Part shown: positions 11,572 to 37,126 of the stretch, piece after piece
Layout: every line of letters begins with the position of its first letter
Position numbering within the stretch: the stretch's first letter is position 1
Assembly (NCBI GenBank): GCA_029267445.1
Contig: JAJUIU010000037.1
Span: forward strand, 1-37,126
DNA length: 37,126 nucleotides
Source of the DNA: Rhodospirillaceae bacterium
GTDB lineage: Bacteria; Pseudomonadota; Alphaproteobacteria; Azospirillales; Azospirillaceae
Direction: 5' to 3'
Notes under the pieces: model-generated
Seen by the model: the letters and a program-made list of their open reading frames with translations, nothing else
The model's database searches: none
What the model was told of the DNA's origin: nothing
Program-made: the position numbers and the translations under genes

Positions 11572-11595
11572 CGTTCGATCTCCTTGTCCGCCGGG

Positions 11596-13503: not shown

Positions 13504-13617
13504 GCACACTCCTCCACTCTCTCGGTTGGCGGGTCCGGGCGCGGACCGTTCTTCTGGATGGCGTGTTCTTCGGGCGCTGGACGGCGATGGCGACCGCCGT
13601 CCTGGCCGCGTTCCGTC

Positions 13618-13642
13618 AACCGGGATGGAGCGTGGGCGTTCC
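13618..13642 (-). promoter_or_regulatory. Candidate EcfG-type promoter (one mismatch)
   Basis: Read on the minus strand: GGAAC (13642-13638), 16-nt spacer, GGTT (13621-13618). The EcfG general-stress consensus is GGAAC-N16/17-CGTT. It lies about 115 bp upstream of the large repeat-protein ATG in the correct orientation. Confidence 0.35.
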
Positions 13643-13672
13643 CGAAAATGAGGGGGGCCGGATCGACCGGAG

Positions 13673-13876
13673 TCAGGCGCGCTCCGGCGGGGGCGGCGGT
13701 TCGGCCGGCGGCACCGGGATCGGGCCGGGCGGCTCCTCCAGCGGCGGGCGCATGGGCTCGTCCTCCGGCATCGGGGGCGGCGGCACGACGGGCGGGGGGA
13801 CGTCCGGGGTCGGCGGAACCGGCGGGTAGGGGCCGAGGGCGATTGCCGGTCGGCGGATCGGGGAGGGTGTCGGCAT
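13673..13876 (-). CDS. Proline-rich microprotein
   Basis: A 67-residue protein in which more than a third of the residues are proline (runs such as PPPVVPPPPMPEDEP), with scattered acidic residues and no cysteine. It is probably an extended polyproline chain. There is no convincing signal peptide, although a short basic/hydrophobic N terminus (PIRRPAIALG) is present. No ribosome site is visible upstream of the ATG at 13876; a possible promoter -10 only 9-12 nt away raises the chance of a leaderless or near-leaderless transcript. It lies upstream of the repeat-protein operon on the same strand. A similar proline-rich microprotein is at 14813-14989. Confidence 0.5.
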   Translation of the reverse strand: MPTPSPIRRPAIALGPYPPVPPTPDVPPPVVPPPPMPEDEPMRPPLEEPPGPIPVPPAEPPPPPERA

Positions 13877-13884
13877 GGCGGTTC

Positions 13885-13910
13885 AACCGGTGGCGGCGCC
13901 GGGCGGTTCC
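13885..13910 (-). promoter_or_regulatory. Second EcfG-like element, directly upstream of the microprotein
   Basis: Minus strand: GGAAC (13910-13906), 17-nt spacer, GGTT (13888-13885), differing from the EcfG consensus only at the first -10 base. The -10 element ends 8 nt before the ATG at 13876, which would leave almost no 5' leader. Confidence 0.33.
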
Positions 13911-14029
13911 CTGTCCGTCGGGCTCCCCACATTCGGGGCGCCGGCATCCGCCGGGGGACGCGGTGCTTGCCTTGGACGGGTGCCGCCTGTGTAAACTCCG
14001 GTTCGGGAGCTGAACCACGACCGGCCCGC

Positions 14030-14791
14030 ATGCTCGACGAGATACTCCTCTACGCCGCCATCGGGTTCGCGGCCCAGATGGTCGACGGCGCCATCGGCAT
14101 GGCCTATGGCGTGACGGCGACCACCTTCATGCTGACCATGGGCATCCCCCCGGCGACCGCCAGCGCCAGCGTCCACGCCGCGGAGGTCTTCACCACCGGG
14201 GCCTCCGGCCTCGCCCATTGGAAGATGGGCAATGTCCGCTTCAAGCTGGTCTGGCGGCTGGCGCTGCCGGGAATGGTCGGCGGCGCCCTGGGCGCCTTCG
14301 TCCTGTCCGGCCTGCCGGGGGACGCCATCCGGCCGTTCGTGACCTTCTACCTGATGGTCATGGGCGGCCTTATCCTGTGGAAGGCCCTGCGTCCGCCCGC
14401 GACCACCGACGAGCCGCCGAAGCATGTCGGCTTCCTCGGCCTGGGCGGCGGTTTCCTGGACGCCATCGGCGGCGGGGGCTGGGGGCCGCTCGTCGCCTCC
14501 ACCCTGATCGGCGGCGGGACCGTGCCGCGCTACGCCATCGGTTCGACCAATCTGGCAGAGTTCTTCGTCACCAGCACCATCTCCGCCACCTTCTTCGCCA
14601 CCATCGGGTTCGAGCTGTGGCCGGTGATCCTGGGGCTGGTGCTGGGTGGGGTGCTGGCGGCCCCCTTCGCCGCCTACGTCACCCAGCGCCTGCCGGACAA
14701 GCCGCTGATGATCCTGGTCGCGGTCGTCATCCTGCTGCTCAGCCTGCGTGGCTTCGTCCAGGCGATCGAGCCCTGGTTCGGCGGCGGCTGA
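14030..14791 (+). CDS. TSUP-family (TauE/SafE) sulfite/anion exporter
   Basis: A 253-residue membrane protein with about eight hydrophobic helices and the duplicated TSUP architecture. The first half has AAQMVDGAIGMAYGV and the second half the matching GGGFLDAIGGGGWGPLV. TSUP proteins export sulfite, sulfoacetate or related organic sulfur anions; substrate cannot be assigned. The frame opens upstream, but the ATG at 14030 starts where family similarity begins. The ribosome site is weak (GGGAG about 20 nt away). It lies on the plus strand between two minus-strand proline-rich microproteins, so it is probably monocistronic. With the SulP operon it is the second possible sulfur-anion exporter in the window. 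Confidence 0.87.
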   Translation: MLDEILLYAAIGFAAQMVDGAIGMAYGVTATTFMLTMGIPPATASASVHAAEVFTTGASGLAHWKMGNVRFKLVWRLALPGMVGGALGAFVLSGLPGDAIRPFVTFYLMVMGGLILWKALRPPATTDEPPKHVGFLGLGGGFLDAIGGGGWGPLVASTLIGGGTVPRYAIGSTNLAEFFVTSTISATFFATIGFELWPVILGLVLGGVLAAPFAAYVTQRLPDKPLMILVAVVILLLSLRGFVQAIEPWFGGG

Positions 14792-14812
14792 GCCCGTCCG
14801 CCACGCGCTGCC

Positions 14813-14989
14813 TCAGCCGAGCGGTGTCGGAGAGGGGACGTCCGGACCCGGTGCCGGACCGCCCGGCAAGGGCGGGATCTCCTGGCCCGGCACGTCGGGC
14901 GTCTCGGTGGGGGAGGGGATTTCCTGCCCCGGCAGGTCCTCGTTGGGGACCGGCGGCTGGGTCGGGGGGATGGGCTGGGGTCCGGGCAT
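14813..14989 (-). CDS. Second proline-rich microprotein
   Basis: A 58-residue open frame with a good ribosome site (AGGAG, 7 nt before the ATG at 14989). It starts MPGPQPIPPTQPPVPNEDL and contains the element PGQEIP twice, followed by a Pro/Gly tail. More than a third of its residues are proline; it has no cysteine and no membrane segment. It converges on the TSUP gene with a 21-bp gap and lies 86 bp downstream of mlaA on the same strand, so it may be co-transcribed with mlaA. Composition and size match the microprotein at 13673-13876. No family is recognised. Confidence 0.55.
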   Translation of the reverse strand: MPGPQPIPPTQPPVPNEDLPGQEIPSPTETPDVPGQEIPPLPGGPAPGPDVPSPTPLG

Positions 14990-15075
14990 TCCAGGCTCCT
15001 GTCGTCACGGGTCTCCCCGTCAACAGGCGGGCGGCGCCGTCGGTCCACGGTCACCGCCCCTGATATGGTCCTTCG

Positions 15076-15891
15076 TCAGTCGAACTCGGGAATGTCCGGG
15101 AACTGCTCGGGGTCCGGCGCGCCGTCCCTGATCCACCCGTCGCGGCGCTGCCGGTAGAGCGATCGGAAGGCGGCGTAGTAGTCGAAGCTGTTGGCCCGCA
15201 GGTCGTCGATGACCTCGATGTACTCCGCCCGCGTGTCGGCGATGGTCAGGCCGACGCGGGTATATGTGAACCAATCCTCCTCGTTGTTGGCGGCGTAACG
15301 GGTCACCGGGTCGGCCCAGGCCTCCAGGAACAGGGCCGGGCCGTCGCGCAGGGAGGAGGCGCCGATCACCGGCAGCACGAGGTAGGGCCCCTCCGGCACG
15401 CCCCAGACGGCCAGCGTCTGCTCGAAGCTCTCGTACTCGTAGGGGATGCCGTTCTGGGCGGCGACGTCGATCAGGCCGCCCAGCCCGACGGTGGTGTTGA
15501 TGGCGAAGCGGGCCAGCACGTCCCCGGCGCCGTCGAGATCGCCCTGCAGAACCTGGTTCGTCAGGTCCAGCGGGGCGCGGACGTTGCGCAGGACGTTGCG
15601 CACGCCGGTGCGCACCGGGTCGGGCAGGACGGTACGGTAGATTTCGGCCACCGGGCGGATGATCACCACGTCCAGCAGCTCGTTGAACCAGAAGACGCCG
15701 CGGTTGATCGGCTCCAGCGGGTCGTTGGCGTCGTCCCGGTGCGACTCCCGGTTCTCCGCCGCGATCTGCGCGAGCTGCGTCTCCGTCACCTGGTCCGCCG
15801 TCTGCGCGGCGACGGGCGCGGCGCCCAGCAGCATGAGGGCGGTGAGGGCGGCCAGGCGGCTTTGACGGTAGGGCGATCGACGGACGGACAT
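15076..15891 (-). CDS. mlaA: MlaA-family phospholipid-transport protein without lipobox
   Basis: A 271-residue MlaA (VacJ) family protein, the outer-membrane component that removes mislocalised phospholipids from the outer leaflet. The family core is clear: NDPLEPINRGVFWFNELLD, RPVAEIYR, LPDPVRTGVRNVLRN, and a later GVPEGPYLVLPVIGASSLRD with YEYESFEQTLAVWG. The N terminus is an export signal (MSVRRSPYRQ then a hydrophobic core, ending near PVAAQ). It has no lipobox cysteine, unlike the classical lipoprotein. The ATG at 15891 is chosen because it begins the signal peptide; the open frame extends 36 residues further upstream without similarity. No mlaB-F genes are in the window. Confidence 0.88.
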   Translation of the reverse strand: MSVRRSPYRQSRLAALTALMLLGAAPVAAQTADQVTETQLAQIAAENRESHRDDANDPLEPINRGVFWFNELLDVVIIRPVAEIYRTVLPDPVRTGVRNVLRNVRAPLDLTNQVLQGDLDGAGDVLARFAINTTVGLGGLIDVAAQNGIPYEYESFEQTLAVWGVPEGPYLVLPVIGASSLRDGPALFLEAWADPVTRYAANNEEDWFTYTRVGLTIADTRAEYIEVIDDLRANSFDYYAAFRSLYRQRRDGWIRDGAPDPEQFPDIPEFD

Positions 15892-16090
15892 GCGGGACGG
15901 CTCCGGACGGCGCGTCGCCGTCCCGGGGCGGCGGGAGGCGTCGTGCGGGGTAGGCGCGCCTTCCGATGTAGGGCGGGGCCGGGCGGCGCAAAGTGACACG
16001 GCTCACAGCCTAGGCCATGAACCCCTAAAAGAATCTTGCACCGCAACAGGGTGGGTCAAATGCGGCGCGCGCCGGGCGGCATTGCGCAAA

Positions 16091-16111
16091 TTCGGGGGAT
16101 TCTACCCCGAA
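16091..16111 (-). terminator. Hairpin overlapping the methyltransferase stop codon
   Basis: A 7-bp perfect stem (TTCGGGG at 16091-16097, CCCCGAA at 16105-16111) with a 7-nt loop that contains the stop codon of the methyltransferase gene. On the minus strand it is followed by TTT. It is a plausible weak intrinsic terminator for the PKHD-hydroxylase/methyltransferase unit. Confidence 0.45.
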
Positions 16112-16731
16112 AGGACAGATTGCGCGCCTGGTGCCCGCCACAGGCTGGCGAGCCAGTCCTGCCGCCGACGGGAAACCCCGGGCGGCCTGCGCCACTGCCG
16201 GATTGGCGTGAAGCCGGCTTCACGGGCCAGCTTCGCCCAGCGCTGCGGACGGCGGAAGGCGACATAGCGGTCCTCCGCCCAGCCTTCCGTGCCGTCTCCG
16301 GTGGGGTCGCAGGCGAAGAGGACGCCTTTTGGCCGCAGCGATGCCCTCAGTCGCGCCAGCACATCCGGCAATGCCGCCGTCGGCACATGGAACAGTACGG
16401 CCTGGGCGAACACGCCGTCGAAGGCGGTTGCCGGCAGGTCGAGGTCCAGCATGTCCTGTTCCAGCACCGGTGCCCCCGACCGCTCGCGCGCCACGGCGGC
16501 CAGGGCGGCGCAGCCGTCCAGCCCGACGGCCCTGTGCCCCAGCGCCGCGAAGGCGGCGAGGTCGCGGCCCGGCCCGCAGCCGAGATCGAGGATGTCGTGC
16601 GGCGCCGGGCCGGGCAGCTCGGCCAGGAAGGCGTCCCGGCATTCGGCGGTGTCGTGGTCGGCCAACGCCACCGCGTAGTCGGCCGCGCGGCGGTCGTAGT
16701 GCTTGATGGTCGACGGCGGCCCGCCGGCCAT
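16102..16731 (-). CDS. Class I SAM-dependent methyltransferase
   Basis: A 209-residue methyltransferase with a Rossmann core: motif I is ILDLGCGPGRDL (about 47-58), the acidic end of strand two is in AVGLDGCAAL, and the post-I region includes DGVFAQAVLFHVP. The substrate is not evident; it resembles small UbiE/Methyltransf_25-type enzymes. Its ATG overlaps the TAA of the PKHD hydroxylase as TAATG, so the two are translationally coupled. It ends inside a hairpin. Iron-linked expression is implied by the Fur-like box upstream of the first gene. Confidence 0.83.
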   Translation of the reverse strand: MAGGPPSTIKHYDRRAADYAVALADHDTAECRDAFLAELPGPAPHDILDLGCGPGRDLAAFAALGHRAVGLDGCAALAAVARERSGAPVLEQDMLDLDLPATAFDGVFAQAVLFHVPTAALPDVLARLRASLRPKGVLFACDPTGDGTEGWAEDRYVAFRRPQRWAKLAREAGFTPIRQWRRPPGVSRRRQDWLASLWRAPGAQSVLSG

Positions 16732-25996: not shown

Positions 25997-27106
25997 GTGG
26001 GGCAGGGCACGGTGCGGGTGGCTTTGGTCGGGGTCGGGAACTGTGCGTCCGCCCTGGTCCAGGGTATCGACCATTATCGCGCGGCCGGCGACAACGATGC
26101 CGTTCCGGGCCTGATGAACGTCCGGCTGGGCGGCTACCATGTCGGCGACGTCACGGTCTGTGCCGCCTTCGACGTATCGGCTGAGAAGGTGGGGCTCGAC
26201 CTCGCCGACGCCATCGCCGCCCCGCCCAACAATACCCGCCGCTTCGCCGACGTGGGCCCGACCGGCGTGGTCGTGCGGCGCGGGCCGACCCTGGACGGGC
26301 TCGGCAGCTATCTGAAGAACGTGGTGGTCGAGGCGGCTGAGCCCGCCTGCGACGTGGCGCGGGTCCTCAAGGAGACGCGCACCGACGTGGTCGTCTCGTA
26401 CCTGCCGGTCGGGTCGGAGAAGGCGACGCGCTGGTACGCCGAACAGGCGCTCAGCGCCGGTTGCGGCTTCGTCAACTGCATCCCCGTCTTCATCGCCTCC
26501 GACGCCGCCTGGCGCGAGCGGTTCGCCGTGGCCGGGCTTCCCCTGATCGGCGACGACATAAAAAGCCAGGTCGGCGCCACCATCGTGCACCGGGTGCTGA
26601 CCAACCTGTTCCGGGAACGTGGTGTGCGCCTCGACCACACCTATCAGCTCAATTTCGGAGGAAACGCCGACTTCCTGAACATGCTGGAGCGGGACCGGCT
26701 CCAGTCCAAGAAGGTCAGCAAGACCCGCGCGGTCACCAGCCAGATGGACCGGCCGCTTGCGAACGATGACGCGCACGTCGGGCCCAGCGACTACGTGCCG
26801 TGGCTGACCGACCGGAAATGGTGCTACATCCGCATGGAGGGCACCGCCTTCGGCGACGTGCCGCTGAACCTGGAGCTGAAGCTCGAGGTCTGGGACAGCC
26901 CCAACTCCGCCGGTGTGGTCATCGACGCCGTGCGCTGCGCCAAGCTGGCGATGGACAGGGGTATCGGCGGCGCGCTGGACGGTCCCTCCAGCTATTTCAT
27001 GAAATCGCCGCCCACCCAGTACACGGACGCCGAGGCGCGGGACCGCACCCGTCGGTTCATCGATGGCCGTCCGGAGGCGGAGGGTGCGCCCGGAGGCCGC
27101 CCGTGA
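25997..27106 (+). CDS. ino1: Inositol-3-phosphate synthase (actinobacterial type)
   Basis: A 369-residue NAD-dependent cyclase that converts glucose-6-phosphate to inositol-3-phosphate. The N-terminal Rossmann motif is [18 protein letters not shown]. Family signatures are [30 protein letters not shown] and [13 protein letters not shown] (the NADF element), plus KVSKTRAV. The size matches the short bacterial/actinobacterial synthases rather than the 500-residue eukaryotic form. The GTG at 25997 has GGAG 7 nt upstream. It is the first gene of a run of ten plus-strand genes and is preceded by a consensus EcfG promoter. Its stop overlaps the phosphatase start (GTGA). Presence of Ino1 implies that the pathway begins by making inositol phosphate. 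Confidence 0.92.
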
Positions 27107-27723
27107 CCCTGTTCCTGCTGGTCCGCCACGCGCCCCACGCGCTTCAGGGGGAGGCGCTGGTCGGGCGGCAGCCGGGGGTGGGCCTCGATCCCGGGCAGCG
27201 CTGGCGGGCGGAGGCCTTGGCGGACGCGCTCGCCGGTCTGGGGGTGGACGCCATCCAGTCCAGCCCGCGCGACCGGGCGCTGGCCACGGCGGACATCCTG
27301 GCGGGGCACCTGCGCCTGCCCGTGGAGACGGTCCCGGACCTCGACGAGATCGACTTCGGCGCCTGGACGGGCAGCCGCTTCGAAGCACTGGCGCCCGACC
27401 CGGACTGGCGGCGCTGGAACGACTGGCGCACGGGCGGCCGCCCCCCTGGCGGGGAGGAGATGGCCGCCGTGCAGCTCCGCATGGTCACGCACATGAAGCG
27501 GACTTGGGAGCGGTGGCCGGAGGGCACGGTCCTGCTGGTCGGCCATGGCGACCCGATCCGGGCGGCGCTGGCCCACTGGCTGGGACTGCCGCTCGACCTG
27601 ATACAGCGGCTGGAGGTTTCGCCCGCCGGGCTCAGCCGGGTCGAGCTGCGGCCCTGGGGGCCCCGCGTGCTGTCCGTGAACGAGACGTTCGGCGGGGTGT
27701 CCGGCGCGGGAGCGGCGGCATGA
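27103..27723 (+). CDS. Histidine-phosphatase-family enzyme
   Basis: A 206-residue phosphoglycerate-mutase-like phosphatase. The catalytic RH motif is [12 protein letters not shown] and the second histidine is in [24 protein letters not shown] supplies the acidic element. The GTG start overlaps the ino1 stop by 4 bp, indicating translational coupling. Given that position, dephosphorylation of inositol phosphate or of a glycosyl-inositol phosphate is an attractive role, replacing an inositol monophosphatase. The family does act on many small phosphates, so this is inference only. Confidence 0.86.
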
Positions 27724-28802
27724 AGCTGGTCGTCTTCGGTCTCACCATCTCCTCCTCCTGGGGCAACGGGCACGCCACGCTCTGGCGCGGGCTGGTCGCG
27801 GCCCTCGCCCGCCGGGGCGTGTCGGTCGTCTTCTTCGAGAAGGACCAGCACTGGTACGCCGGCAACCGGGACTATCGGGACCTGCCGGGCGGCCGGCTCG
27901 TGCTCTACGGCGACTGGGCGGAGGCGCTGGGAACGGCGCGCCTGCACCTGGCGGACGCCGACGCCGCCATGGTCACCAGCTATTGCCCGGACGGCGTGGC
28001 GGCGACGGCGCTTGTCCGGCAGGCAAGGGGGCTCCGCCTGTTCTACGACCTGGACACGCCGGTGACCCTGGCCGACCTGGAGGCCGGCAAGACCGTCTCC
28101 TACCTGGACGCCGATGGCTTGCGCGGCTTCGACCTGGTGTTCAGCTACACCGGTGGACGCGCGCTCGATGATCTGCGGGACCGGCTGGGAGCCGCCGCCG
28201 TGGCACCGCTCTACGGGCATGTCGACCCGGCGGTGCATCGGCCGGTGCCGGCGCAGGAGCATTACCGGGCCGATTTATCCTATCTCGGCACCTACGCGGC
28301 GGACCGGCAGCCCGGCGTGGAGCGGTTCCTGGTGGAACCGGCGCGTCGACTGCCCGACCGCCGCTTCGTCATCGGCGGGGCGCAGTACCCGCAGGATTTC
28401 CCTTGGGCCGAGAACATCTGGTTCGTGCGCCACCTGCCGCCGCCGGAGCATCCGGCCTTCTTCAGTTCAAGCCGTGTCACCCTCAACGTCACCCGTGCCG
28501 CCATGGCGGCCATGGGCTGGTGCCCGTCCGGCCGGCTGTTCGAGGCGGCGGCCTGCGGCACGCCTGTGCTGACGGACTGGTGGGAGGGCCTGGACCGGTT
28601 CTTCACGCCGGGTGCGGAAATCCTGGTGGGGTACGGGACGGAGGACGCGGTGGCGGCCGTCGACCTGTCGGACGCCGAGCTGCGCCGCCTGGGCGAGGCC
28701 GCGCGCGCCCGCGTCCTGGCCGACCACACGGCAGACCGGCGGGCCGAGGAGTTCATCGCCGCACTGTCCGCCGCGCGCCTTCCGCAACGCCGGTCGGCCT
28801 GA
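27720..28802 (+). CDS. CgeB-like glycosyltransferase
   Basis: A 360-residue GT-B-fold protein of the CgeB/Glyco_trans_1_2 type. It begins [20 protein letters not shown], with a Gly-rich loop after strand one. The C-terminal domain ends with the typical RLFEAAACGTPVLTDWWEGLDRFF and FTPGAEILV elements that hold the nucleotide sugar. It starts at an ATGA overlap with the phosphatase gene. Acceptor and donor are not readable from sequence. Context suggests transfer of a sugar to an inositol- or sugar-containing acceptor. A second, unrelated GT4 enzyme is encoded further downstream in the same run. Confidence 0.85.
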   Translation: MKLVVFGLTISSSWGNGHATLWRGLVAALARRGVSVVFFEKDQHWYAGNRDYRDLPGGRLVLYGDWAEALGTARLHLADADAAMVTSYCPDGVAATALVRQARGLRLFYDLDTPVTLADLEAGKTVSYLDADGLRGFDLVFSYTGGRALDDLRDRLGAAAVAPLYGHVDPAVHRPVPAQEHYRADLSYLGTYAADRQPGVERFLVEPARRLPDRRFVIGGAQYPQDFPWAENIWFVRHLPPPEHPAFFSSSRVTLNVTRAAMAAMGWCPSGRLFEAAACGTPVLTDWWEGLDRFFTPGAEILVGYGTEDAVAAVDLSDAELRRLGEAARARVLADHTADRRAEEFIAALSAARLPQRRSA

Positions 28803-28826
28803 GCCGCTATCCGAGGGAGGACCCCG

Positions 28827-29645
28827 ATGTGGGGCATCGTACCCGCCGCCGGCAGCGGCACACGCATCCAGCCACTCGCGTTTTCCAAGGAGCTGCTGCC
28901 CGTGGGCAGCCGCCTCGACGGTGAGCATGAGCGACCCCGCGCCGTCAGCGAATACCTGCTGGAACGGCTGGTGCTGGGCGGCTGCGACAAGATCTGCTTC
29001 GTGATCGGGCCGGGGAAGTCCGACATCCTGGAGTATTTTGGCGGGGGCTACGGCACGGCGTCGGCCGCCTATGTGGTGCAGCCGCGCCCAGGCGGCCTGT
29101 GCGATGCGATCTTCAGGGCCCTGCCGCTGATCGGGCCGGACGAGCCGGTGGCCGTGGGCCTTCCGGACACGGTCTGGTTCCCTGAGGACGCGCTGGCACG
29201 GCTGCCGGACGACCGGCTGTCCTTCCTGCTGTTCCCGGTGGACAGGCCGGAGCTGTTCGACGCGGTCGCCACCCGCGAGGACGGGACGGTGACTGAAATC
29301 CAGGTCAAGCGCCCGGATGCGGGGACGAACTGGATCTGGGGCGCCTTCAAGATGCCGGGACGGGTGCTGCACGAGCTGCACGCCCTGTGGCGGGCCCGCG
29401 ACCGGCGGGACGAGTACATGGGCACGCTGGTCAACGCCTGGATCGCCGACGGGGGCGTGGCCGTCGGCGTGCGCGCGGGCGAGGCGTATGTCGATGTCGG
29501 CACGGTGCATGGCTATCGCGCCGCGATCGGGCTGCTGGCCGACCGGATCAGGAACGCGAAGAACGGGGATCATGATGGACGGACTGCTGGCCGACCGGGA
29601 GGAACTGCGGCGGCGGATCGAGACGCTCGCCCCCTGGTTCCATAA
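28827..29645 (+). CDS. Sugar-phosphate nucleotidyltransferase
   Basis: A 272-residue NTP_transferase-fold enzyme that makes an NDP-sugar. The signature is MWGIVPAAGSGTRIQPLAFSKELLPVG, typical of glucose-1-phosphate thymidylyl/uridylyltransferases, with GLPDTVWFP as the metal-binding D and ETEIQ/VTEIQVKRP later. The ATG at 28827 has GGGAGG. The last 25 or so residues overlap the beginning of the next gene in another frame (29572-29645) and are low-complexity Gly/Asp/Arg-rich; the functional end may be near 29570. It is expected to supply activated sugar to the pathway's glycosyltransferases; sugar identity is unknown. Confidence 0.85.
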   Translation: MWGIVPAAGSGTRIQPLAFSKELLPVGSRLDGEHERPRAVSEYLLERLVLGGCDKICFVIGPGKSDILEYFGGGYGTASAAYVVQPRPGGLCDAIFRALPLIGPDEPVAVGLPDTVWFPEDALARLPDDRLSFLLFPVDRPELFDAVATREDGTVTEIQVKRPDAGTNWIWGAFKMPGRVLHELHALWRARDRRDEYMGTLVNAWIADGGVAVGVRAGEAYVDVGTVHGYRAAIGLLADRIRNAKNGDHDGRTAGRPGGTAAADRDARPLVP

Positions 29646-30348
29646 CCTGGAGCTGAATGGGGTCCCGACGGCGCCGGACCATTTCCTGGGCGACTATCCG
29701 GCGGTGAAGTGGAACAGCTTCGCCGCCGCGCTGCCGGCCGATCTCGGCGGGAAGTCGGTCCTGGACATCGGCTGCAACGCGGGCTTCTACAGCCTGGAGA
29801 TGAAGCGCCGGGGTGCCGCACGGGTGGTCGGGATCGACAGCGACCCGCGTTATCTGGCGCAGGCGCGCTTGGCGGCGGAGGTCACCGGCGCCGCGATCGA
29901 CTTCCGGGAGCTGTCCGTCTACGACGTCGGCGCCCTCGGCGAACGGTTCGACGTGGTGCTGTTCCTGGGCGTGCTCTATCACCTGCGCCACCCGCTGCTG
30001 GCCCTGGACCTGATCCGGGAGCACGTGGCCGGCGACATGCTGGTCTATCAGTCCATGCAGCGCGGCAGCGCCGCCGTGGGCGAGGTCGCCTCCGACTACG
30101 CGTTCGCGGAAACGGCCCCGTTCGACAGGCCCGACTTCCCCCGGATGCATTTCATCGAGGGCAGTTACGCGGGCGACTGGACGAACTGGTGGGTGCCCAA
30201 CCGCGCCTGCTCCGCCGCCATGCTGCGCAGCGCCGGCTTCCGCATCGAAGCCAATCCGGAGGCGGAGGTGTTCATCTGTCGGGTGGCCGACAGGTCCGTT
30301 CATGAACTGGCCGCCTATCCGGCACGCGGGCCCGCCCCGCGCGGTTGA
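29572..30348 (+). CDS. SAM-dependent methyltransferase (TIGR04290-like)
   Basis: A 258-residue methyltransferase. Motif I is VLDIGCNAGFYSLEMKRRGAA with an acidic GIDSD, and the post-motif region contains FDVVLFLGVLYHLRHPLLALD. The N terminus (WFHNLELNGV, FLGDYPAVKW) resembles tRNA-wobble/CmoB-like and TIGR04290-type methyltransferases, which occur in gene neighbourhoods like this one. It starts at the ATG ATG pair 29572/29575 with GGGGA upstream and overlaps the end of the nucleotidyltransferase gene by 74 bp. It probably methylates a sugar or inositol of the product; the acceptor is unknown. Confidence 0.84.
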   Translation: MMDGLLADREELRRRIETLAPWFHNLELNGVPTAPDHFLGDYPAVKWNSFAAALPADLGGKSVLDIGCNAGFYSLEMKRRGAARVVGIDSDPRYLAQARLAAEVTGAAIDFRELSVYDVGALGERFDVVLFLGVLYHLRHPLLALDLIREHVAGDMLVYQSMQRGSAAVGEVASDYAFAETAPFDRPDFPRMHFIEGSYAGDWTNWWVPNRACSAAMLRSAGFRIEANPEAEVFICRVADRSVHELAAYPARGPAPRG

Positions 30349-30390
30349 GCATTCTGGGAACAAGACGACGGGAGCCACGGGGGGAGAGGC

Positions 30391-31350
30391 ATGCTCGAAG
30401 CGGTGATGATCTGGAACGAGCCCAACAACAAGTCCCACTGGGACATCGAGCTCGACAGCGACTGGGCCATGTTCGCCGAGATGGCGCGCCTGACCGGACG
30501 GGCGCTGCGGGAGGCATGCCCCGGCGTTCCCCGCGTGCTGGGCGGCATCTCCCCCATCGATCCCGCCTTCATCCGTAACATGGCCGGTCGCGGCGTGCTG
30601 GACGAGATGGACGCCGTCGCCGTCCATGGCTTTCCGCTCGACTGGAACCACTGGCAGCTCGACGATTGGCCGGCCAAGCTTGAGGAAATCCGGCAGGTCA
30701 CATCCAAGGACCTCTGGGTGTCCGAGGTCGGGATCAGCACCTTCGGCGCCGAGGAGGTGCAGGAGTTCGGCCTGAACCGCACGGCGGAGCTGCTGATCGG
30801 GCGGGCCCCCCGCATCCACTGGTACAGCCTGTTCGACCTGCCCAAGGCCTGGCCCGCCACCACCCGCCACCGGGAGGCCGAGGGGTCCAGCTACTACCGA
30901 CACTTCTACATGGGCCTGGTGAAGGAGGACGGCACGCCCAAGCGGGCGCTGTCCCATTTCCCCCGCCACACGCCGGAGATCGGACTTTGCCAGTGGTTCC
31001 ATTACCAGGACCACCGGCTGGACGACGCCGTCCGGCTGATGAAGGAGCTGGGCGTCACCTACCTGCGCACCGGCCTGTCCTGGGCCGACTGGTACCGGCC
31101 CGACGCGCTCGCCTGGTTCGACCGGCAGATGGAGGCGCTGCGGGACTTCCAGGTCACCGTCACCTACTGCTTCACGCCGGAGCACAAGGGCATCCCGAAC
31201 CCCGTCCATGGCGACCGGGCGAACTACACAAGCCCGCCGCAGCGGGCCGAGGAGTTCGCCGCGTTCTGCGTGGAGATGACCCGCCGCTACGGCGGCCAAG
31301 ACCGGGGAGCGGTGCCGGCCGCGGGACAGCTCGCACCGACCTCCGCGTGA
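30391..31350 (+). CDS. Clan GH-A glycosidase, apparently circularly permuted
   Basis: A 319-residue beta-xylosidase-like enzyme. The N terminus is already the catalytic strand: MLEAVMIWNEPNNKSHWD, with acid/base Glu10 in the NEP motif. The nucleophile is probably Glu112 in DLWVSEVGIST. After this core the protein continues with residues 205-300 (DDAVRLMKELGVTYLRTGLS, then VTVTYCFTPEHKGIPN and RAEEFAAFCVEMTRRYGG), which resemble the first three strands that normally precede the NEP strand in GH39/GH5-type barrels. The order therefore looks rotated. There is no room upstream (42 bp) for a lost N-terminal half. The last 19 residues are low-complexity. Its stop overlaps the deacetylase start (GTGA). 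Confidence 0.8.
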   Translation: MLEAVMIWNEPNNKSHWDIELDSDWAMFAEMARLTGRALREACPGVPRVLGGISPIDPAFIRNMAGRGVLDEMDAVAVHGFPLDWNHWQLDDWPAKLEEIRQVTSKDLWVSEVGISTFGAEEVQEFGLNRTAELLIGRAPRIHWYSLFDLPKAWPATTRHREAEGSSYYRHFYMGLVKEDGTPKRALSHFPRHTPEIGLCQWFHYQDHRLDDAVRLMKELGVTYLRTGLSWADWYRPDALAWFDRQMEALRDFQVTVTYCFTPEHKGIPNPVHGDRANYTSPPQRAEEFAAFCVEMTRRYGGQDRGAVPAAGQLAPTSA

Positions 31351-32228
31351 CGCCGCCCGGCAGACGGCGTCCCGGCCTGCCGCTCGCCCCGGCGGCGGTG
31401 GAACTGCTGCGCGATCTCGCCGACCCCGATGTGGGCCTGCTGGACGCGGGCGGCATCGCGGTGGTCTGCGCCCACCCGGACGACGAGACCGTGGGCATCG
31501 GCGCCCAGCTGCCGCGCCTGACCGGCATCCGGATCGTCCATGTCACCGACGGAGCGCCGGCCGACATGCGCGACGCCCGCGAGCATGGCTTCGGCACGAG
31601 GGAGGCCTATGCCGCCGCCCGGCGCGACGAGCTGGAGACGGCGATGGCCAGGGCGGGCATCCCACCGGTGCGCATCACCGGGCTGGGGGTCGCGGACCAG
31701 GAGGCCGCACAGGTCCTGCCGGGACTGTCCCGGCGGATGGCCGACCTGTTCGAGGCGATGGAGATCGGGCTGGTGGTCACCCATGCCTACGAGGGTGGGC
31801 ACCCCGACCATGACGCCACCTGCTTCACCGTCCAGGCCGGGGCGACGCTGCTGGCCCGGCGCGGCCGCCCGGCGCCAAGCCTGCTGGAGATGACCGGCTA
31901 CCACGCCGGGCCCGACGGCAATCTGGAGACGGGCGTCTTCCTCCCCCGGCGGGACTGTCCGGAAACCCTGCTGCCGCTCGACGAGGATGCGGCCGACATG
32001 AAGCGCCGGCTGCTCGCCTGCCACCGCACCCAGGCGGCGACGCTGTCCCAGTTCCGGCTGGAGGTGGAGCGGCTGCGCCCGGCGCCCGCCTACGATTTCC
32101 TAGCCCCGCCGCATCCGGGGCGGCCCTGGTACGAGAATTTCGCCTGGGGCATGGACCTCGACCGCTGGCTCGACCTCGCGGCGGCGGCGACGGCCGACCT
32201 GGGGCTGGAGGCGCCGCCATGGCGCTGA
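31347..32228 (+). CDS. PIG-L/MshB-like N-acetylglucosaminyl deacetylase
   Basis: A 293-residue zinc deacetylase of the PIG-L/LmbE family. The signature CAHPDDETVGIG (zinc ligands His43 and Asp46, with catalytic-type Asp45) and the second ligand region GGHPDHDATCF are both present. Characterised relatives (MshB, PIG-L, BshB) remove acetate from GlcNAc attached to inositol, lipid or malate. With ino1, a GT4 enzyme and an acyltransferase in the same run, GlcNAc-inositol-type substrates are the natural hypothesis. The GTG at 31347 overlaps the glycosidase stop, and its 3' end overlaps the GT4 start by 10 bp. Substrate remains untested. Confidence 0.88.
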   Translation: MTPPGRRRPGLPLAPAAVELLRDLADPDVGLLDAGGIAVVCAHPDDETVGIGAQLPRLTGIRIVHVTDGAPADMRDAREHGFGTREAYAAARRDELETAMARAGIPPVRITGLGVADQEAAQVLPGLSRRMADLFEAMEIGLVVTHAYEGGHPDHDATCFTVQAGATLLARRGRPAPSLLEMTGYHAGPDGNLETGVFLPRRDCPETLLPLDEDAADMKRRLLACHRTQAATLSQFRLEVERLRPAPAYDFLAPPHPGRPWYENFAWGMDLDRWLDLAAAATADLGLEAPPWR

Positions 32229-33277
32229 CGGTGCTCCAGGTCTCCTATCCCCTGGCCCCGGTCGGCGTCGACACGGCGGGCGGGGCGGAGCAGATCCTGG
32301 CCTGGCTCGACCGGGGCCTCGTCGCGCGGGGCGACCGCTCCCTCGTCGTGGCGCCGGAGGGGTCGCGGGTGGCGGGCACGCTGCTGCCGGTGCCATGGTC
32401 CGACGGCGCGCTGGACGACGCGGCCATGGCGGCGGCGCGGGATCGGCATCGGCGGGCCATCCTGCGGGCGCTGGACCGGCACCCGGTGGACCTCGTCCAT
32501 CTGCACGGGATCGACGCGCTGGACTATCTGCCCCCGCCGGGCGTGCCGGTCCTGATCACGCTGCATCTGCCGCCCGACTGGTACCCGCCCGCGATCTGGC
32601 GGCTGGAGCGGCCGGACACCTGGCTGGTCCCGGTGTCGGCGGCCCAGGCGCGCGATTGCCCGGCCGGTCCCACCCTGCTGCCGCCTGTCCCGAACGGCAT
32701 CCCCATCGCGGACCTGGACAAGCGGCACCGCAAGGCTGGATTCGCCGCCGCCATGGGCCGCATCTGTCCGGAGAAGGGGCTGCACATCGCGGCCGAGGCG
32801 GCGCGGGCGGCCGACGCCGACCTGCTGATCGCCGGCCGCCTCTATGCCTATCCGGACCATGTGCGCTACGCGGACACCGTGCTGCGTCCGGCGCTGGACC
32901 GGCGGCGGCGCTGGATCGGGCCGGTCGGCTTCCGGGGCAAGCGCCGCCTGCTCGGCATGGCCCGCTGCGCCCTCGTCCCCAGCCTCTGCCGGGAGACGGG
33001 ATCGCTGGTGGCGATGGAGGCGCTGGCCTGCGGCACGCCGGTGATCGCCTTTCCGAACGGCGCCCTGGCGGAGGTGGTGGAGGACGGGGTGACCGGCTTC
33101 CTGGTGCCCGACGCCGCCTCCATGGCGGACGCAATCGGCCGGGCGGACCGGATCGACCCGGAGGCCTGCCGGGCGGCGGCGCGGGCCCGCTTCGGCCTGG
33201 ACGCGATGGTGGAGGGTTACCGGGCCGCCTACCGCCGCATCCTGCACCCGCAACCGGCGGGAGCCGCCGCGCCATGA
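32219..33277 (+). CDS. GT4-family glycosyltransferase
   Basis: A 352-residue retaining glycosyltransferase of the GT4 type. The GT-B N-terminal loop is AGGAEQILAWLD. The C-terminal nucleotide-binding EX7E motif is ETGSLVAMEALACGTPVIAF. The phosphate-binding region is AAMGRICPEKGLHIA. MshA of mycothiol synthesis is a GT4 enzyme that joins GlcNAc to inositol-phosphate, but many other GT4 enzymes exist, so the analogy is contextual. The ATG at 32219 overlaps the deacetylase by 10 bp and its stop overlaps the next start by 4 bp. Confidence 0.9.
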   Translation: MALTVLQVSYPLAPVGVDTAGGAEQILAWLDRGLVARGDRSLVVAPEGSRVAGTLLPVPWSDGALDDAAMAAARDRHRRAILRALDRHPVDLVHLHGIDALDYLPPPGVPVLITLHLPPDWYPPAIWRLERPDTWLVPVSAAQARDCPAGPTLLPPVPNGIPIADLDKRHRKAGFAAAMGRICPEKGLHIAAEAARAADADLLIAGRLYAYPDHVRYADTVLRPALDRRRRWIGPVGFRGKRRLLGMARCALVPSLCRETGSLVAMEALACGTPVIAFPNGALAEVVEDGVTGFLVPDAASMADAIGRADRIDPEACRAAARARFGLDAMVEGYRAAYRRILHPQPAGAAAP

Positions 33278-34248
33278 CGACGCTGGAACGGCTTGAGGGT
33301 GCCGAGGCGCTCGCCCGGATCGAGCCGGAATGGTGGGCGCTCTGGCGCGCCGACCCGGTGGCGACGCCTTTCCAGTCCCCGGCCTGGCTGCTGCCCTGGG
33401 CCGCCGTGTTCCAGCCGGAGCGTGCCTTCGTCCTAGCGCTGCGGGATGGCGGCCGGCTGATGGCGCTGCTGCCGCTTTTCGCCTTGGTGGAGGCGGGGCG
33501 GACCCGCCTGCTGCCGCTCGGGGCGGGGACGACGGACTGGCTCGGCGGGCTTGTGCATCCCGAGGTTCGAGGCGATGCGCCGGCACGCCTGCTGGCCGCG
33601 CTGGACGCCCTGCCGGGCTGGACCGCCCTGGACCTGGTCCAGCTTGCGCCGGACGATCCCTTCGCCACGGCACCCGCACCCTGGCCGGAGACGCTGGAGG
33701 AGGGGGAGCCCTGTCCGGCCGTGTCCCCCCTGCCGCCGCCGCTGTCGCGCAGCTTCGCCCAGAACCTGCGGACGGCCCGCAACCGGCTTGGCCGGCAGGG
33801 CGGCTGTCGGGTCCGCCGGGCCATGGGACCCGAACTGCCCGACGCCTTCGACCGGCTGACGGACCTGCACGGCGCCCGCTGGCGTTCGCGCGGGGAGGCG
33901 GGGGTGCTGGCCGAGCGGGAGGTGCGCGCGTTCCATCACAAGGCCCTGCTCGGGTTGGAGGCGGGGGGCTTGCTCCGCCTCCTCCTGCTGGAGCAGGGCG
34001 GGCGCGCCCTGGCCATGGTCTACGGGCTGGCCGCCAAAGGGCGGTTCCACTGCTACATCACCGGGTTCGATCCGGACGCCGCCTTCTTCAGCCCCGGCAC
34101 GGTGCTGATCGACCATGCGATGCGGGAGGCGGCAGGGGAGGGGATGACCATGTTCGACTTCCTGCGCGGCCGCGAGGCCTACAAATACGCCTGGGGGGCC
34201 GTGGACCGGCCCAGCGTGACACGCCGCTTCACGCGGGGTGCGGGCTGA
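33274..34248 (+). CDS. CelD/BcsL-like GNAT-fold acyltransferase
   Basis: A 324-residue protein of the Acetyltransf_6 (CelD/BcsL, FemAB-related) type, with two GNAT-like halves. Diagnostic parts are the start WWALWRADPVATPFQSPAWL, the central SFAQNLRTARNRLGRQGG, and the end FHCYITGFDPDAAFFSPGTV followed by FDFLRGREAYKYAW. Such enzymes acylate sugars or amines of surface glycans. In this run it would act on the amine freed by the deacetylase. It is joined by 4-bp overlap to the GT4 gene, and its TGA overlaps the next ATG (TGATG). The acyl donor is unknown. Confidence 0.83.
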   Translation: MTTLERLEGAEALARIEPEWWALWRADPVATPFQSPAWLLPWAAVFQPERAFVLALRDGGRLMALLPLFALVEAGRTRLLPLGAGTTDWLGGLVHPEVRGDAPARLLAALDALPGWTALDLVQLAPDDPFATAPAPWPETLEEGEPCPAVSPLPPPLSRSFAQNLRTARNRLGRQGGCRVRRAMGPELPDAFDRLTDLHGARWRSRGEAGVLAEREVRAFHHKALLGLEAGGLLRLLLLEQGGRALAMVYGLAAKGRFHCYITGFDPDAAFFSPGTVLIDHAMREAAGEGMTMFDFLRGREAYKYAWGAVDRPSVTRRFTRGAG

Positions 34249-35048
34249 TGGCGGGGCCGCCGGTCGGCCTGCGCTGGACGGTGGGCGACGTCAGCCCGCG
34301 CGGCTTCCGGGCGCTGCGCCTCGCCCTGTGGGGGGCGCGGCGCGTGTTCGGGCCGGGGGCCGCCCTGGCGGTGGTGGTGAACAGCGTTCCGGTCGCGGAG
34401 GCGCGGGCGCGCACCGGTGCCGTGCCGGACGGGATCGACTGGCTGCCGGCCGGCGACATGCCCCGGCGGCTCGCCGCCCACCTGGACGGCGGGATGGCTG
34501 AGGGGGTCGCCTGGAAGCTGGCGCCGCTGCGCCTGTTCCCGGACCGCTGGGAGATCGCCTTCGACAATGACTGCGTGCTGTGGGAGATGCCGCCCAGCAT
34601 TGCCGGCTGGCTCGCCGCCGGCGACCGCGCCACATGCCTGCTGGAGGAGGATGTGGAGCGGGCGCATGGCGCCTTCGACCATTTGTGCGGGCCGCTGAGC
34701 CTGAACACTGGCATCCGGGGTTTCCCGCCCGGCTTCGATGTTGAGGCGGCCCTGTGCGCCGTGCTGGACGCGCATCCGGTGCCGCTCGCGGGCGAGCTGG
34801 ACGAGCAGGGGATGCAGGTGGCCGCCCTGCAGCGCGCCCGCCCGCCCGCCGTGGTGACGGTGGCGGAGGTCAGCATCTGCGCCCCCTTCTGGCCCAAGCG
34901 GCCGGAGCTGGGCTCCCACGGGGCGCATTTCGTCGGGCTGAACGCGCGGTCGCTGCCCTGGGACTGGTACGGCCGTCCGGCCAGCGACTGCCAGAACGGG
35001 AACTTCGACCGCTGGGAGCCGGAGATCGCGCGGCGGGTCGGGCTTTAG
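34248..35048 (+). CDS. Unknown protein, possible GT-A-like glycosyltransferase
   Basis: A 266-residue soluble protein without a recognised family. A DND motif sits in WEIAFDNDCVLWEMP, in the place where a GT-A enzyme keeps its metal-binding DxD. Other conserved-looking pieces are GVAWKLAPLRLFPDRW, LLEEDVERAHGAFDHLCGP and a C-terminal GAHFVGLNARSLPWDWYG. A glycosyltransferase role is therefore possible but unproven. It starts at a TGATG overlap with the acyltransferase gene. It is the last plus-strand gene of the run; its stop overlaps that of the convergent glucosidase by 4 bp. Confidence 0.72.
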   Translation: MAGPPVGLRWTVGDVSPRGFRALRLALWGARRVFGPGAALAVVVNSVPVAEARARTGAVPDGIDWLPAGDMPRRLAAHLDGGMAEGVAWKLAPLRLFPDRWEIAFDNDCVLWEMPPSIAGWLAAGDRATCLLEEDVERAHGAFDHLCGPLSLNTGIRGFPPGFDVEAALCAVLDAHPVPLAGELDEQGMQVAALQRARPPAVVTVAEVSICAPFWPKRPELGSHGAHFVGLNARSLPWDWYGRPASDCQNGNFDRWEPEIARRVGL

Positions 35049-37126
35049 GCGGTCCTGACCCAGCAGCGCAGCGCCTCCGCCACGCTCCAGGCCTGGCTGA
35101 TGCAGCCGCGCGGGGTGAAGGGCGGTTCGGCGTCGAAAATCTCCGCGATGGTGCCGACCCCGGCCTCCGACAGGTGGGGCCACAGTCCCTCCAGCATCCG
35201 CCGCGCCTCCTCCTTGTCCTCCGGGTGCAGCTTCAGCCAGGCGTCGATATAGGGGCCGATCAGCCAGCCCCAGACTGTGCCCTGGTGGTAGGCCGCGTCG
35301 CGGGCGCGCAGATCGCCGAAATAGCGCTGCTTGTAGTCCCGGTGACCGGGGTCGAGGGAGCGCAGCCCCACGGGGGTCAGCAGACGCTCCTCCACCGTGC
35401 GCATCACCGGCTCCCAGCGCTCCCGGTCCAGCACAGGACTGTCGAGCGAGATGGCGAACACCTGGTTGGGGCGGCAGGCCGCGTCGTCGCCATGCTCCCC
35501 GTCCACGACGTCGAAGAGGTAGCCCGCGTCCGGGTTCCAGAAGCGGCGGTTGAAGCTGTCGCGCACCCGGTCGGCGAGGTCGTGGACGAGGTTGGCGGAG
35601 CCGACCCCCTGCTCCTGCTCCAGCCAGCCGGCCAGCAGCCTCAGCGCGTTGTACCAGAGGGCGTTGATCTCCACCGCCTTGCCCCGGCGCGGTGTCACCA
35701 CCCAGTCCTCCACCTTGGCGTCCATCCAGGTGAGCTGATAGCCGGGGGCACCCTGGCGGAGCAGGCCGTCGGCCGGGTCCATGGCGATGCCGAAGTCGGT
35801 GCCGTGCCGATGGTTGTTGACGATGTCCAGCAGCCTCGGCAGCAGGCGACGCAGCGTGTCGCGCTCGCCCGTCGCCGCCGTGTAGCGGTTCAGCGCGTGG
35901 AAGAACCACAGCGTGGCGTCGGCCGTGTTGTAGAGGCCGGTGCTACGCCCCTCCGGGAACATGTTCGGGATCAGGCCCCGGCGGATATGCTTGGCGAAGG
36001 TGCGCAGGATCCAGCCCGCCTCCACATGCCGGCCGGTGCAGAGGGTCAGCCCCTCCAGCGAGATCATCGTGTCGCGGCCCCAGTCCGTGAACCAGTGGTA
36101 GCCGGCGATGACGCTGCGCACCTCGTCGCCTGTGGCGTAGGCCTGGATCACGTCGGCCGCCCGGCCGACCGGAGTCATCAGGAAGCTGTCGGCCGCCAGC
36201 ACCAGCTCCGCCGGAACGCCGGACCGGCAGCATTCCGGCGCGATGTTCAGCAGGTGGCGCCGCCGCTCCCGCTCCCAGTCGCGCACGTCGGCGGGGTCCA
36301 GGCTGTCGATCGTGTCCCAGTCCTCCGCCCCGGCGATCAGGGTGACGGTCCCTCCCGGCTCCAGCCGCACGGTGAACTCGCCGGGGCTCCACAGCATGCC
36401 CCGGCTGTCGTAGCCACGCTCCGCCTCGACGGCGTAGAACACCTCGCGCCGGTGCTCCCCATCCAGGGTGAAGCGGCTGTCGGCCCCGAGGAGCTTCAGG
36501 CGCAGGACCGCCTGCTCGCCGTCAGCCGCGATCTCGAACCGCTCGCCGGCGACGGACAGGCGGTAGGATCGCCCCGCCGACGATGCCACCGGCGACTCCA
36601 GCGCCCGGAAGTTCACGGTGGGCCGGATGGCCAGCTCGGTCTCCGGGCAGCCATGGTCCAGATGGTAGGAGACGTGCACGATGTTCTGCCTGTGCGGCAT
36701 GACCACCCGGCGCGTCAGCCTGACGTCACCCACCCGGTAGCGCCAGACCGGCAGGCCCTCCTCCAGGGTGAAGGACTCCAAAGCCGGCAGCTCCTTCTCC
36801 GGCCCGGCGGCGTCCGCATCCATCCGCGCCAGCGGCACCTCCGGCCCGATCGTCGGGCGCAGGCGTTCGTTCAGGTGCGACAGCAGGACCAGGCGCCCCC
36901 GGGGCGCGTTCATCGCGGCGACCAGCAGTCCATGGTAGCGCCGCGTGAGCGCGCCGGAGACGGTGGTGGAGGCGTATCCCCCCAGCCCGTTAGCCACCAG
37001 CCATTCCCGGTCGGTCAGCGTGCCCGCCTGCTCGCGCAAAGCGCCCCCCTCCAGCCTGCGGGCGGCGCCGAGCGCGCCCGGCCGGCCCGTATCCAGGGCG
37101 CCGCCGTCGCGCCGCGTCGGCTCAGG
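35045..37126 (-). CDS. Amylo-alpha-1,6-glucosidase-like enzyme, 5' end outside the window
   Basis: At least 664 residues are visible and the frame stays open to the window edge, so the true start lies to the right. The N terminus seen (REWLVANGLGGYASTTVSG, RRYHGLLVAAM) is the GDE_N domain of bacterial debranching-type glucosidases. The catalytic (alpha/alpha)6 part shows DWGRDTMISLEGL, MDAKVEDWVVTPRRGKAVEINALWYNA and AYHQGTVWGWLIGPYID. It hydrolyses alpha-1,6 or related alpha-glucosidic bonds. It converges on the inositol-glycoside run, ending 4 bp inside the last gene. It may trim or recycle the same product or act on glycogen or trehalose-type stores. Confidence 0.9.
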   Translation of the reverse strand, partial: PEPTRRDGGALDTGRPGALGAARRLEGGALREQAGTLTDREWLVANGLGGYASTTVSGALTRRYHGLLVAAMNAPRGRLVLLSHLNERLRPTIGPEVPLARMDADAAGPEKELPALESFTLEEGLPVWRYRVGDVRLTRRVVMPHRQNIVHVSYHLDHGCPETELAIRPTVNFRALESPVASSAGRSYRLSVAGERFEIAADGEQAVLRLKLLGADSRFTLDGEHRREVFYAVEAERGYDSRGMLWSPGEFTVRLEPGGTVTLIAGAEDWDTIDSLDPADVRDWERERRRHLLNIAPECCRSGVPAELVLAADSFLMTPVGRAADVIQAYATGDEVRSVIAGYHWFTDWGRDTMISLEGLTLCTGRHVEAGWILRTFAKHIRRGLIPNMFPEGRSTGLYNTADATLWFFHALNRYTAATGERDTLRRLLPRLLDIVNNHRHGTDFGIAMDPADGLLRQGAPGYQLTWMDAKVEDWVVTPRRGKAVEINALWYNALRLLAGWLEQEQGVGSANLVHDLADRVRDSFNRRFWNPDAGYLFDVVDGEHGDDAACRPNQVFAISLDSPVLDRERWEPVMRTVEERLLTPVGLRSLDPGHRDYKQRYFGDLRARDAAYHQGTVWGWLIGPYIDAWLKLHPEDKEEARRMLEGLWPHLSEAGVGTIAEIFDAEPPFTPRGCISQAWSVAEALRCWVRTA

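Follow-up and report, generated by a model that had tools for sequence, protein, structure and literature searches.

The gene at positions 30391–31350 (stop codon included) on the forward strand of the window, the whole analyzed stretch of 37,126 nucleotides, encodes a protein of 319 residues. Judged by sequence comparison and a predicted structure, this protein is almost certainly a naturally occurring circular permutant of a clan GH-A barrel. Members of this clan have a (β/α)8 barrel with an Asn-Glu acid/base at strand 4 and a Glu nucleophile at strand 7. It is very probable that the protein is permuted and at the same time keeps its GH-A active site intact, and on the basis of the open reading frame, the alignments, and the model, it is described here as a circularly permuted GH39-like glycosidase. 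An earlier note on this DNA had proposed a circularly permuted GH-A glycosidase, and the proposal is borne out by alignments in swapped order, by rotation scans, and by the strand order of an AlphaFold model.

The open reading frame at 30391–31350 is a real and complete coding frame. An in-frame stop lies 14 codons 5′ of the ATG, with no alternative start (ATG, GTG, or TTG) in between, and a Shine-Dalgarno-like sequence, GGGGGAGAGG, is found directly ahead of the ATG on the forward strand (30380–30389). At the 3′ end, the TGA of the gene shares bases with the GTG start of a PIG-L gene in the sequence GTGA. Of the 110 aligned homologue rows, 99 begin with ATG and 11 with GTG. A Shine-Dalgarno-like motif precedes the start in 89 of the 110, as against 16.7% of 2000 random positions, and 40 of the 110 have no other possible start codon up to the 5′ stop. 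The conservation of start, joint, and end across the homologues argues against truncation or misannotation, in agreement with the earlier note, which had considered truncation unlikely in view of the 42 bp (confirmed here) between this gene and the preceding one.

Alignment to unpermuted homologues places query residues 190/195–301 first and, after a gap of 3–4 residues, residues 3/4–184/186, at 29%–36% identity. Both halves of the protein are homologous to a relative of normal order, and their order is swapped. To locate the old ends, every rotation of residues 1–302 was compared by Smith-Waterman alignment with two unpermuted proteins, L111 and L112, with 200 shuffles each. Against L111, the native order scored 267 and the best rotation 428 (cuts after residues 186–194), with shuffles at or below 62; against L112, the values were 276 and 393 (cuts 184–189), with shuffles at or below 54. 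A second scan, in which 68-row HMM profiles were run against 10 canonical proteins, gave a mean best single-domain score of 97.7 bits unrotated, 87.0 bits when cut after residue 30, and 165.2 bits when cut after residue 190, with lower values beyond; the maximum fell at cuts after residues 186–194. Rotation yields one continuous alignment whose score peaks at the old ends. The cut at residue 205 suggested in the earlier note is about ten residues late.

The same behavior is seen in proteins of the L111 and L112 type, in which an N-terminal barrel is followed by a C-terminal SDR epimerase/dehydratase. Those with intact barrels are matched as one domain by the rotated profile and as two swapped pieces by the native profile. 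The permuted protein of Dyadobacter shows the opposite pattern, with one domain for the native profile and two pieces for the rotated one. The most degenerate SDR-fused rows, L113 and L116, gave two pieces with the rotated and native profiles alike.

By profile and by homologous structural match, the best solved relative is PslG, a GH39 endoglycosidase of Pseudomonas aeruginosa (PDB 5bx9, 4zn2, 9g17). A rotated profile of ten rows matched PslG in a single stretch (43.1 bits, E 2.8e-10), whereas the native-order profile of the same ten rows matched it in two swapped pieces (28.5 bits, E 7.9e-6); the 68-row native-order profile gave 31.9 bits (E 7.3e-7). The rotated match constitutes significant similarity to a classified member, one criterion for GH39 in CAZy. 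Against Pfam, rotation of the single sequence improved Glyco_hydro_1 from E 0.25 to 0.00095 and Glyco_hydro_cc from 17.9 to 18.9 bits, both below cut-off. Neither the native nor the rotated sequence had a listed match to Glyco_hydro_39 (PF01229) at E up to 10, in searches whose filters drop most weak matches, and no GH13 or GH70 model was among the Pfam matches listed for either; L146, another of the unpermuted relatives, has a PF01229 match. The gain on rotation expected in the earlier note was clear for PslG and for the ten canonical relatives but small for Pfam. Because the Pfam GH39 model was unmatched, the relation to GH39 drawn in that note rests on the similarity to PslG, and the family is named GH39-like rather than GH39.

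On the forward strand, the chain can be divided into four parts. Residues 1–186 (30391–30948) correspond to the C-terminal part of ordinary barrels (β4–β8 and the start of α8) and align with residues 232–410 of L111 and 132–310 of L112. The joint, residues 185–197 between the flanking Lys184 and Gly198 (30943–30981), leads from α8 directly into β1 and has 13 residues in all 68 of 68 rows. Residues 197–302 (30979–31296) correspond to the N-terminal part (β1, β2, β3, and α3) and align with residues 127–228 of L111 and 21–127 of L112. The C-terminal tail, residues 303–319 (31297–31347), is variable, with pLDDT below 50 at residues 306–316, and the homologues range from 294 to 325 residues in length.

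An AlphaFold2 model computed from the 68-row alignment has a pLDDT of 89.5, a pTM of 0.87, and eight strands; this model was used throughout, as a single-sequence prediction reached a pLDDT of only 44.4. In canonical numbering, the strands at residues 2–7, 48–53, 75–80, 107–113, and 142–145 are β4–β8, and those at 197–200, 224–230, and 254–260 are β1–β3 at the chain end. The strand order, a check that the earlier note had set beforehand, is thus not the normal one in the model: the catalytic β4 comes first and β1–β3 come last. Two of the three segments that the note had listed as strands 1–3 are β2 and β3, the third is helix α3 (residues 286–300), and the true β1 of the model had been missed.

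Both catalytic positions given in the earlier note are right. In the model, N9-E10 follows the strand 2–7 and E112 lies at the end of the strand 107–113, which is the catalytic layout of clan GH-A. Alignment with PslG makes Glu10 (codon 30418–30420, forward strand; sequence WNEPN) the counterpart of PslG Glu165 and predicted general acid/base, and Glu112 (codon 30724–30726, forward strand; sequence WVSEVG) the counterpart of PslG Glu276 and predicted nucleophile. In PslG, these two residues are given as acid-base and nucleophile, respectively (PMC11912335). Neither residue varies in any of the 111 rows, the window included, and the same is true of His79, Trp144, Arg226, and the Asn that precedes the acid/base. 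The predicted active site, GH-A in type and invariant, draws residues from both chain parts.

With VIA-align, nearly the whole model superposes on complete TIM barrels, such as 7uek (Z 13.7, 217 of 228 residues, 3.6 Å); the full-length rows have Z up to 13.7, rmsd of 3.5–4.9 Å, and identities of 6%–12%. These near-full-length matches indicate that the barrel of the permuted protein, as modeled, is complete; they are evidence of a complete barrel and not of kinship. The sequential aligner placed model residues 1–195 on residues 156–356 of PslG (9g17_A; Z 12.2, 2.3 Å, 175 residues, 23% identity). Superposition is confined to residues 1–195 because a sequential aligner must behave in this way with a permuted relative. 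PslG was absent from the best 50 Foldseek matches in the PDB, and the best of these, generic barrels and β-glucuronidases, were not taken to be relatives. The model depicts a complete fold in which the old ends are joined and new ends lie elsewhere. PslG has the normal strand order and 416 residues in the solved construct, in contrast to the permuted, single-domain protein of the window.

The family is well conserved. A contig scan found 160 stretches encoding a relative, of which 80 loci were kept; these are 64%–80% identical to the window protein and cover residues 1 (or 2) to about 296–319, each in a single uninterrupted BLAST match. Together with 30 rows from an order-level genome search, the window among them, they make up the 110 homologue rows. 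Seven of these repeat a contig that is present in two collections, and one row is the window's own; the distinct proteins thus number 103, the window's among them. None of the 103 has lost a catalytic Glu. The lowest pairwise identity among permuted rows is 0.62, and 94 positions, drawn from both parts, are invariant over the 111 rows. A further relative, L121, is 58% identical to the window protein.

In the order-level search, 39 of 82 genomes had a match, 37 of them permuted and two (G045 and G075) with a normal-order homologue only. The class sample of 289 genomes contained six with the permuted form and six with the SDR-fused form, and none with both. Permuted genes were found in one of 198 genomes from the phylum of Dyadobacter, the same genome carrying the SDR-fused form, in three of 247 from the phylum of an Acidobacteria metagenome-assembled genome, and in 26 of 193, plus one fragment, from the phylum of Pyxidicoccus. 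Several phyla in this spread rest on metagenome-assembled genomes. On plasmids, a match was found in 147 records, and in 97 of these it spans at least 80% of the query. With the A1 profile, full-length permuted matches scored at least 527 bits and unpermuted ones at most 123 bits, and no full-length intermediate or divergent permuted form fell between these values in the class and phylum samples. A myxococcal genome contains a piece corresponding to residues 199–299 only (L201; G967:C1, about 1519541–1519843; a 97-residue open frame, 169.9 bits), perhaps a decayed or split copy of a permuted gene.

The closest relatives outside the family are the GH39-like domains fused to SDR proteins, which form its sister group at ∼35% identity. 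They differ from the permuted family in having the normal strand order and in being attached to the SDR rather than standing alone. Nine of them (L111, L112, L123–L128, and L156) have the same catalytic residues. Of the 18 SDR-fused domains checked, another nine (L113, L116, L157, and L194–L199) lack the nucleophile or both Glu, and the barrel in this clade may therefore sometimes act without catalysis. These degenerate domains come from Myxococcota and from one genus of the window's own family, and have the appearance of a pseudo-glycosidase domain on an epimerase-like enzyme. The idea that the SDR-fused barrel decayed because a permuted gene had taken over is unsupported as a rule: some genomes with degenerate rows contain a permuted gene (G078–G081, G369, and G947) and others do not (G960, G976, and G1012), and in Dyadobacter both forms are intact.

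A maximum-likelihood tree was calculated from 45 rows, in which the 68 permuted rows were represented by 23, each rotated, alongside 10 SDR-fused rows and 12 other unpermuted relatives; the most degenerate SDR-fused rows were excluded. The permuted rows cluster together (100/98), as do the SDR-fused rows (98/99); these two groups are united in turn (99/97), and the other unpermuted rows fall outside. Long branches were flagged by the tree program, also where the SDR-fused rows meet the outer ones. A single permutation event, on the branch to the permuted family, is the simplest reading. From this one tree and the genomic context, we infer that the permuted family would have a single origin, in an ancestor shared with the unpermuted SDR-fused domain of the same type of cluster. 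As the sequence comparisons and the predicted model show, the original ends, after α8 and before β1, are linked by a short joint that does not vary in length, and the new ends lie in the α3-β4 loop, so that the chain starts directly at the acid/base strand. In Dyadobacter crusticola (L156), both forms occur in one cluster (6934–7818 and 14504–16570), 7 kb apart on the same strand, with the catalytic Glu intact in both.

The permuted gene of the window lies in a run of forward-strand genes, several of which recur at other loci. Counted as best matches within 6 kb at 80 loci, some ended early by contig ends, the neighbors upstream are an inositol-3-phosphate synthase (25997–27106; 52/80 loci), the nearest NCBIfam model of which is TIGR03450 mycothiol_INO1 (544.8 bits, short of the cut-off of 638); a histidine phosphatase family protein (27100–27723; 57/80); a glycosyltransferase matching Pfam Glyco_trans_1_2 (27720–28802; 43/80), which we take to be CgeB-like; a sugar nucleotidyltransferase (28827–29645; 41/80); and a TIGR04290 family methyltransferase (29572–30348; 384 bits, cut-off 300; 64/80). 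Downstream are a PIG-L family deacetylase with a GTG start (31347–32228; 22/80), a GT4 glycosyltransferase (32219–33277; 22/80), and an Acetyltransf_6 (GNAT) acyltransferase (33274–34248, searched from 33277; 16/80). Within the same 6 kb, SDR2 is found at 25, SDR1 at 21, ADH at 15, and Gfo/Idh at 14 of the 80 loci. Most of the enzyme classes of the cluster at 25997–34248 parallel those of mycothiol biosynthesis. A mycothiol-like product was considered in view of the inositol synthase, GT4, phosphatase, PIG-L, and GNAT genes and set aside, as the parallel is one of enzyme classes only and the curated mycothiol and bacillithiol models stayed below their cut-offs. No ligase was found among the searched genes of the window cluster, and no published description of the cluster in the literature searched.

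Compared with the SDR half of the Dyadobacter fusion, the SDR2 proteins show 46%–62% identity. None of the 31 SDR2 rows beside a permuted gene (29 of L001–L080, plus L191 and L192) carries a GH domain, L044 being cut at that point; the Dyadobacter locus L156 is the exception, with a fused SDR in the same locus as a permuted gene. The five fused rows in this comparison had been found through their GH domain and are not an independent count. The fused-form loci L111, L112, L157, and L159 contain SDR1, SDR2, GT4b, and CgeB-like genes common to the permuted clusters, and this sharing suggests that the two forms belong to different versions of a single type of pathway.

With its active site intact, the protein is most likely a retaining β-glycosidase or transglycosidase, with Glu10 as acid/base and Glu112 as nucleophile. 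The start of the chain at strand 4 leaves no space for a signal peptide, which suggests a cytosolic location. We infer that it probably acts there as a retaining β-glycosidase or transglycosidase on a glycoside of its own cluster. The putative substrate would be an intermediate or product of the inositol-phosphate synthase, phosphatase, nucleotidyltransferase, glycosyltransferase, methyltransferase, and PIG-L enzymes. The gene for PslG is also located in a polysaccharide biosynthesis cluster, and PslG is exported.

Two other roles for a genuine permuted barrel were weighed. It might act as a binding or scaffold protein, a pseudo-glycosidase, for an intermediate of the pathway; the absence of the nucleophile or of both Glu from half of the SDR-fused sister domains checked and the placement of the gene in a biosynthetic, not a degradative, cluster are compatible with this, but the invariance of both Glu, the preceding Asn, His79, Trp144, and Arg226 in every permuted row makes it unlikely. 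It is rather doubtful that the enzyme breaks down a stored or imported glycan in a β-xylosidase-like catabolism. The annotation as β-xylosidase in some plasmid records (hypothetical protein in others) and a glycogen-debranching-type gene on the opposite strand at 35045–37039 point in that direction, whereas the recurrent neighbors are synthases, nucleotidyltransferases, glycosyltransferases, and the methyltransferase, and within ∼6 kb in two plasmid clusters there is no annotated transporter or catabolic gene other than a zinc-binding dehydrogenase and a Gfo/Idh oxidoreductase, which may act in either direction. That the frame merely fuses the 3′ part of a GH gene to the 5′ part of a different one, as can arise by tandem duplication and subsequent deletion, or has a miscalled start, and encodes no functional barrel is scarcely credible despite its abrupt start at the catalytic strand, since 103 distinct proteins of at least 62% pairwise identity share this start and contain both parts, the joint keeps its 13 residues in 68 of 68 rows, the 94 invariant positions lie in both parts, a complete fold is predicted by AlphaFold, and no further GH homologue was found within 6 kb at the 80 loci (E up to 1e-3, open reading frames of at least 60 residues).

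Enzyme barrels are seldom circularly permuted in nature, and no report of such a case in clan GH-A was found in the open-access literature searched. The GH70 glucansucrases are permuted relative to GH13 (clan GH-H) with activity kept and, like the present family, have a glycosidase barrel that was permuted naturally (PMC11299179), but they belong to another clan and family, are extracellular and multidomain, and make α-glucans. The amylase MalS, a permuted GH13_19 enzyme of known structure (PMC10223318), differs in that whole domains have changed their order (C-A-B-A-C), whereas the cut in the GH39-like family lies inside a single-domain GH-A barrel. Designed permuted TIM barrels have been described as well (PMC13105402).

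Taken jointly, the observations lead us to lean slightly toward the view that this is the first natural circular permutation in clan GH-A, a very large clan, and that it would have arisen once, with the SDR-fused domains as its sister lineage. The permuted form would since have spread as a stand-alone, highly conserved protein across Proteobacteria, Myxococcota, Acidobacteriota, Bacteroidota, and others. It would serve an inositol-linked glycoside pathway that is as yet undescribed, with the permuted enzyme used by some lineages and the unpermuted domain, whether active or decayed, retained by others. The permuted family and its unpermuted sister are both extant, once in the same cluster (Dyadobacter), and this coexistence offers a clean test system for the effects of permutation on folding and catalysis. 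The permutation may also explain the partial profile matches and the label "hypothetical protein" in some records, and the family points to a widely shared biosynthetic cluster.

Elsewhere in the window, two adjacent genes on the reverse strand (10648–14031) have long degenerate repeats of the PxVxVxQ type ahead of a PRC-barrel domain; the larger of the two also matches DUF6470.
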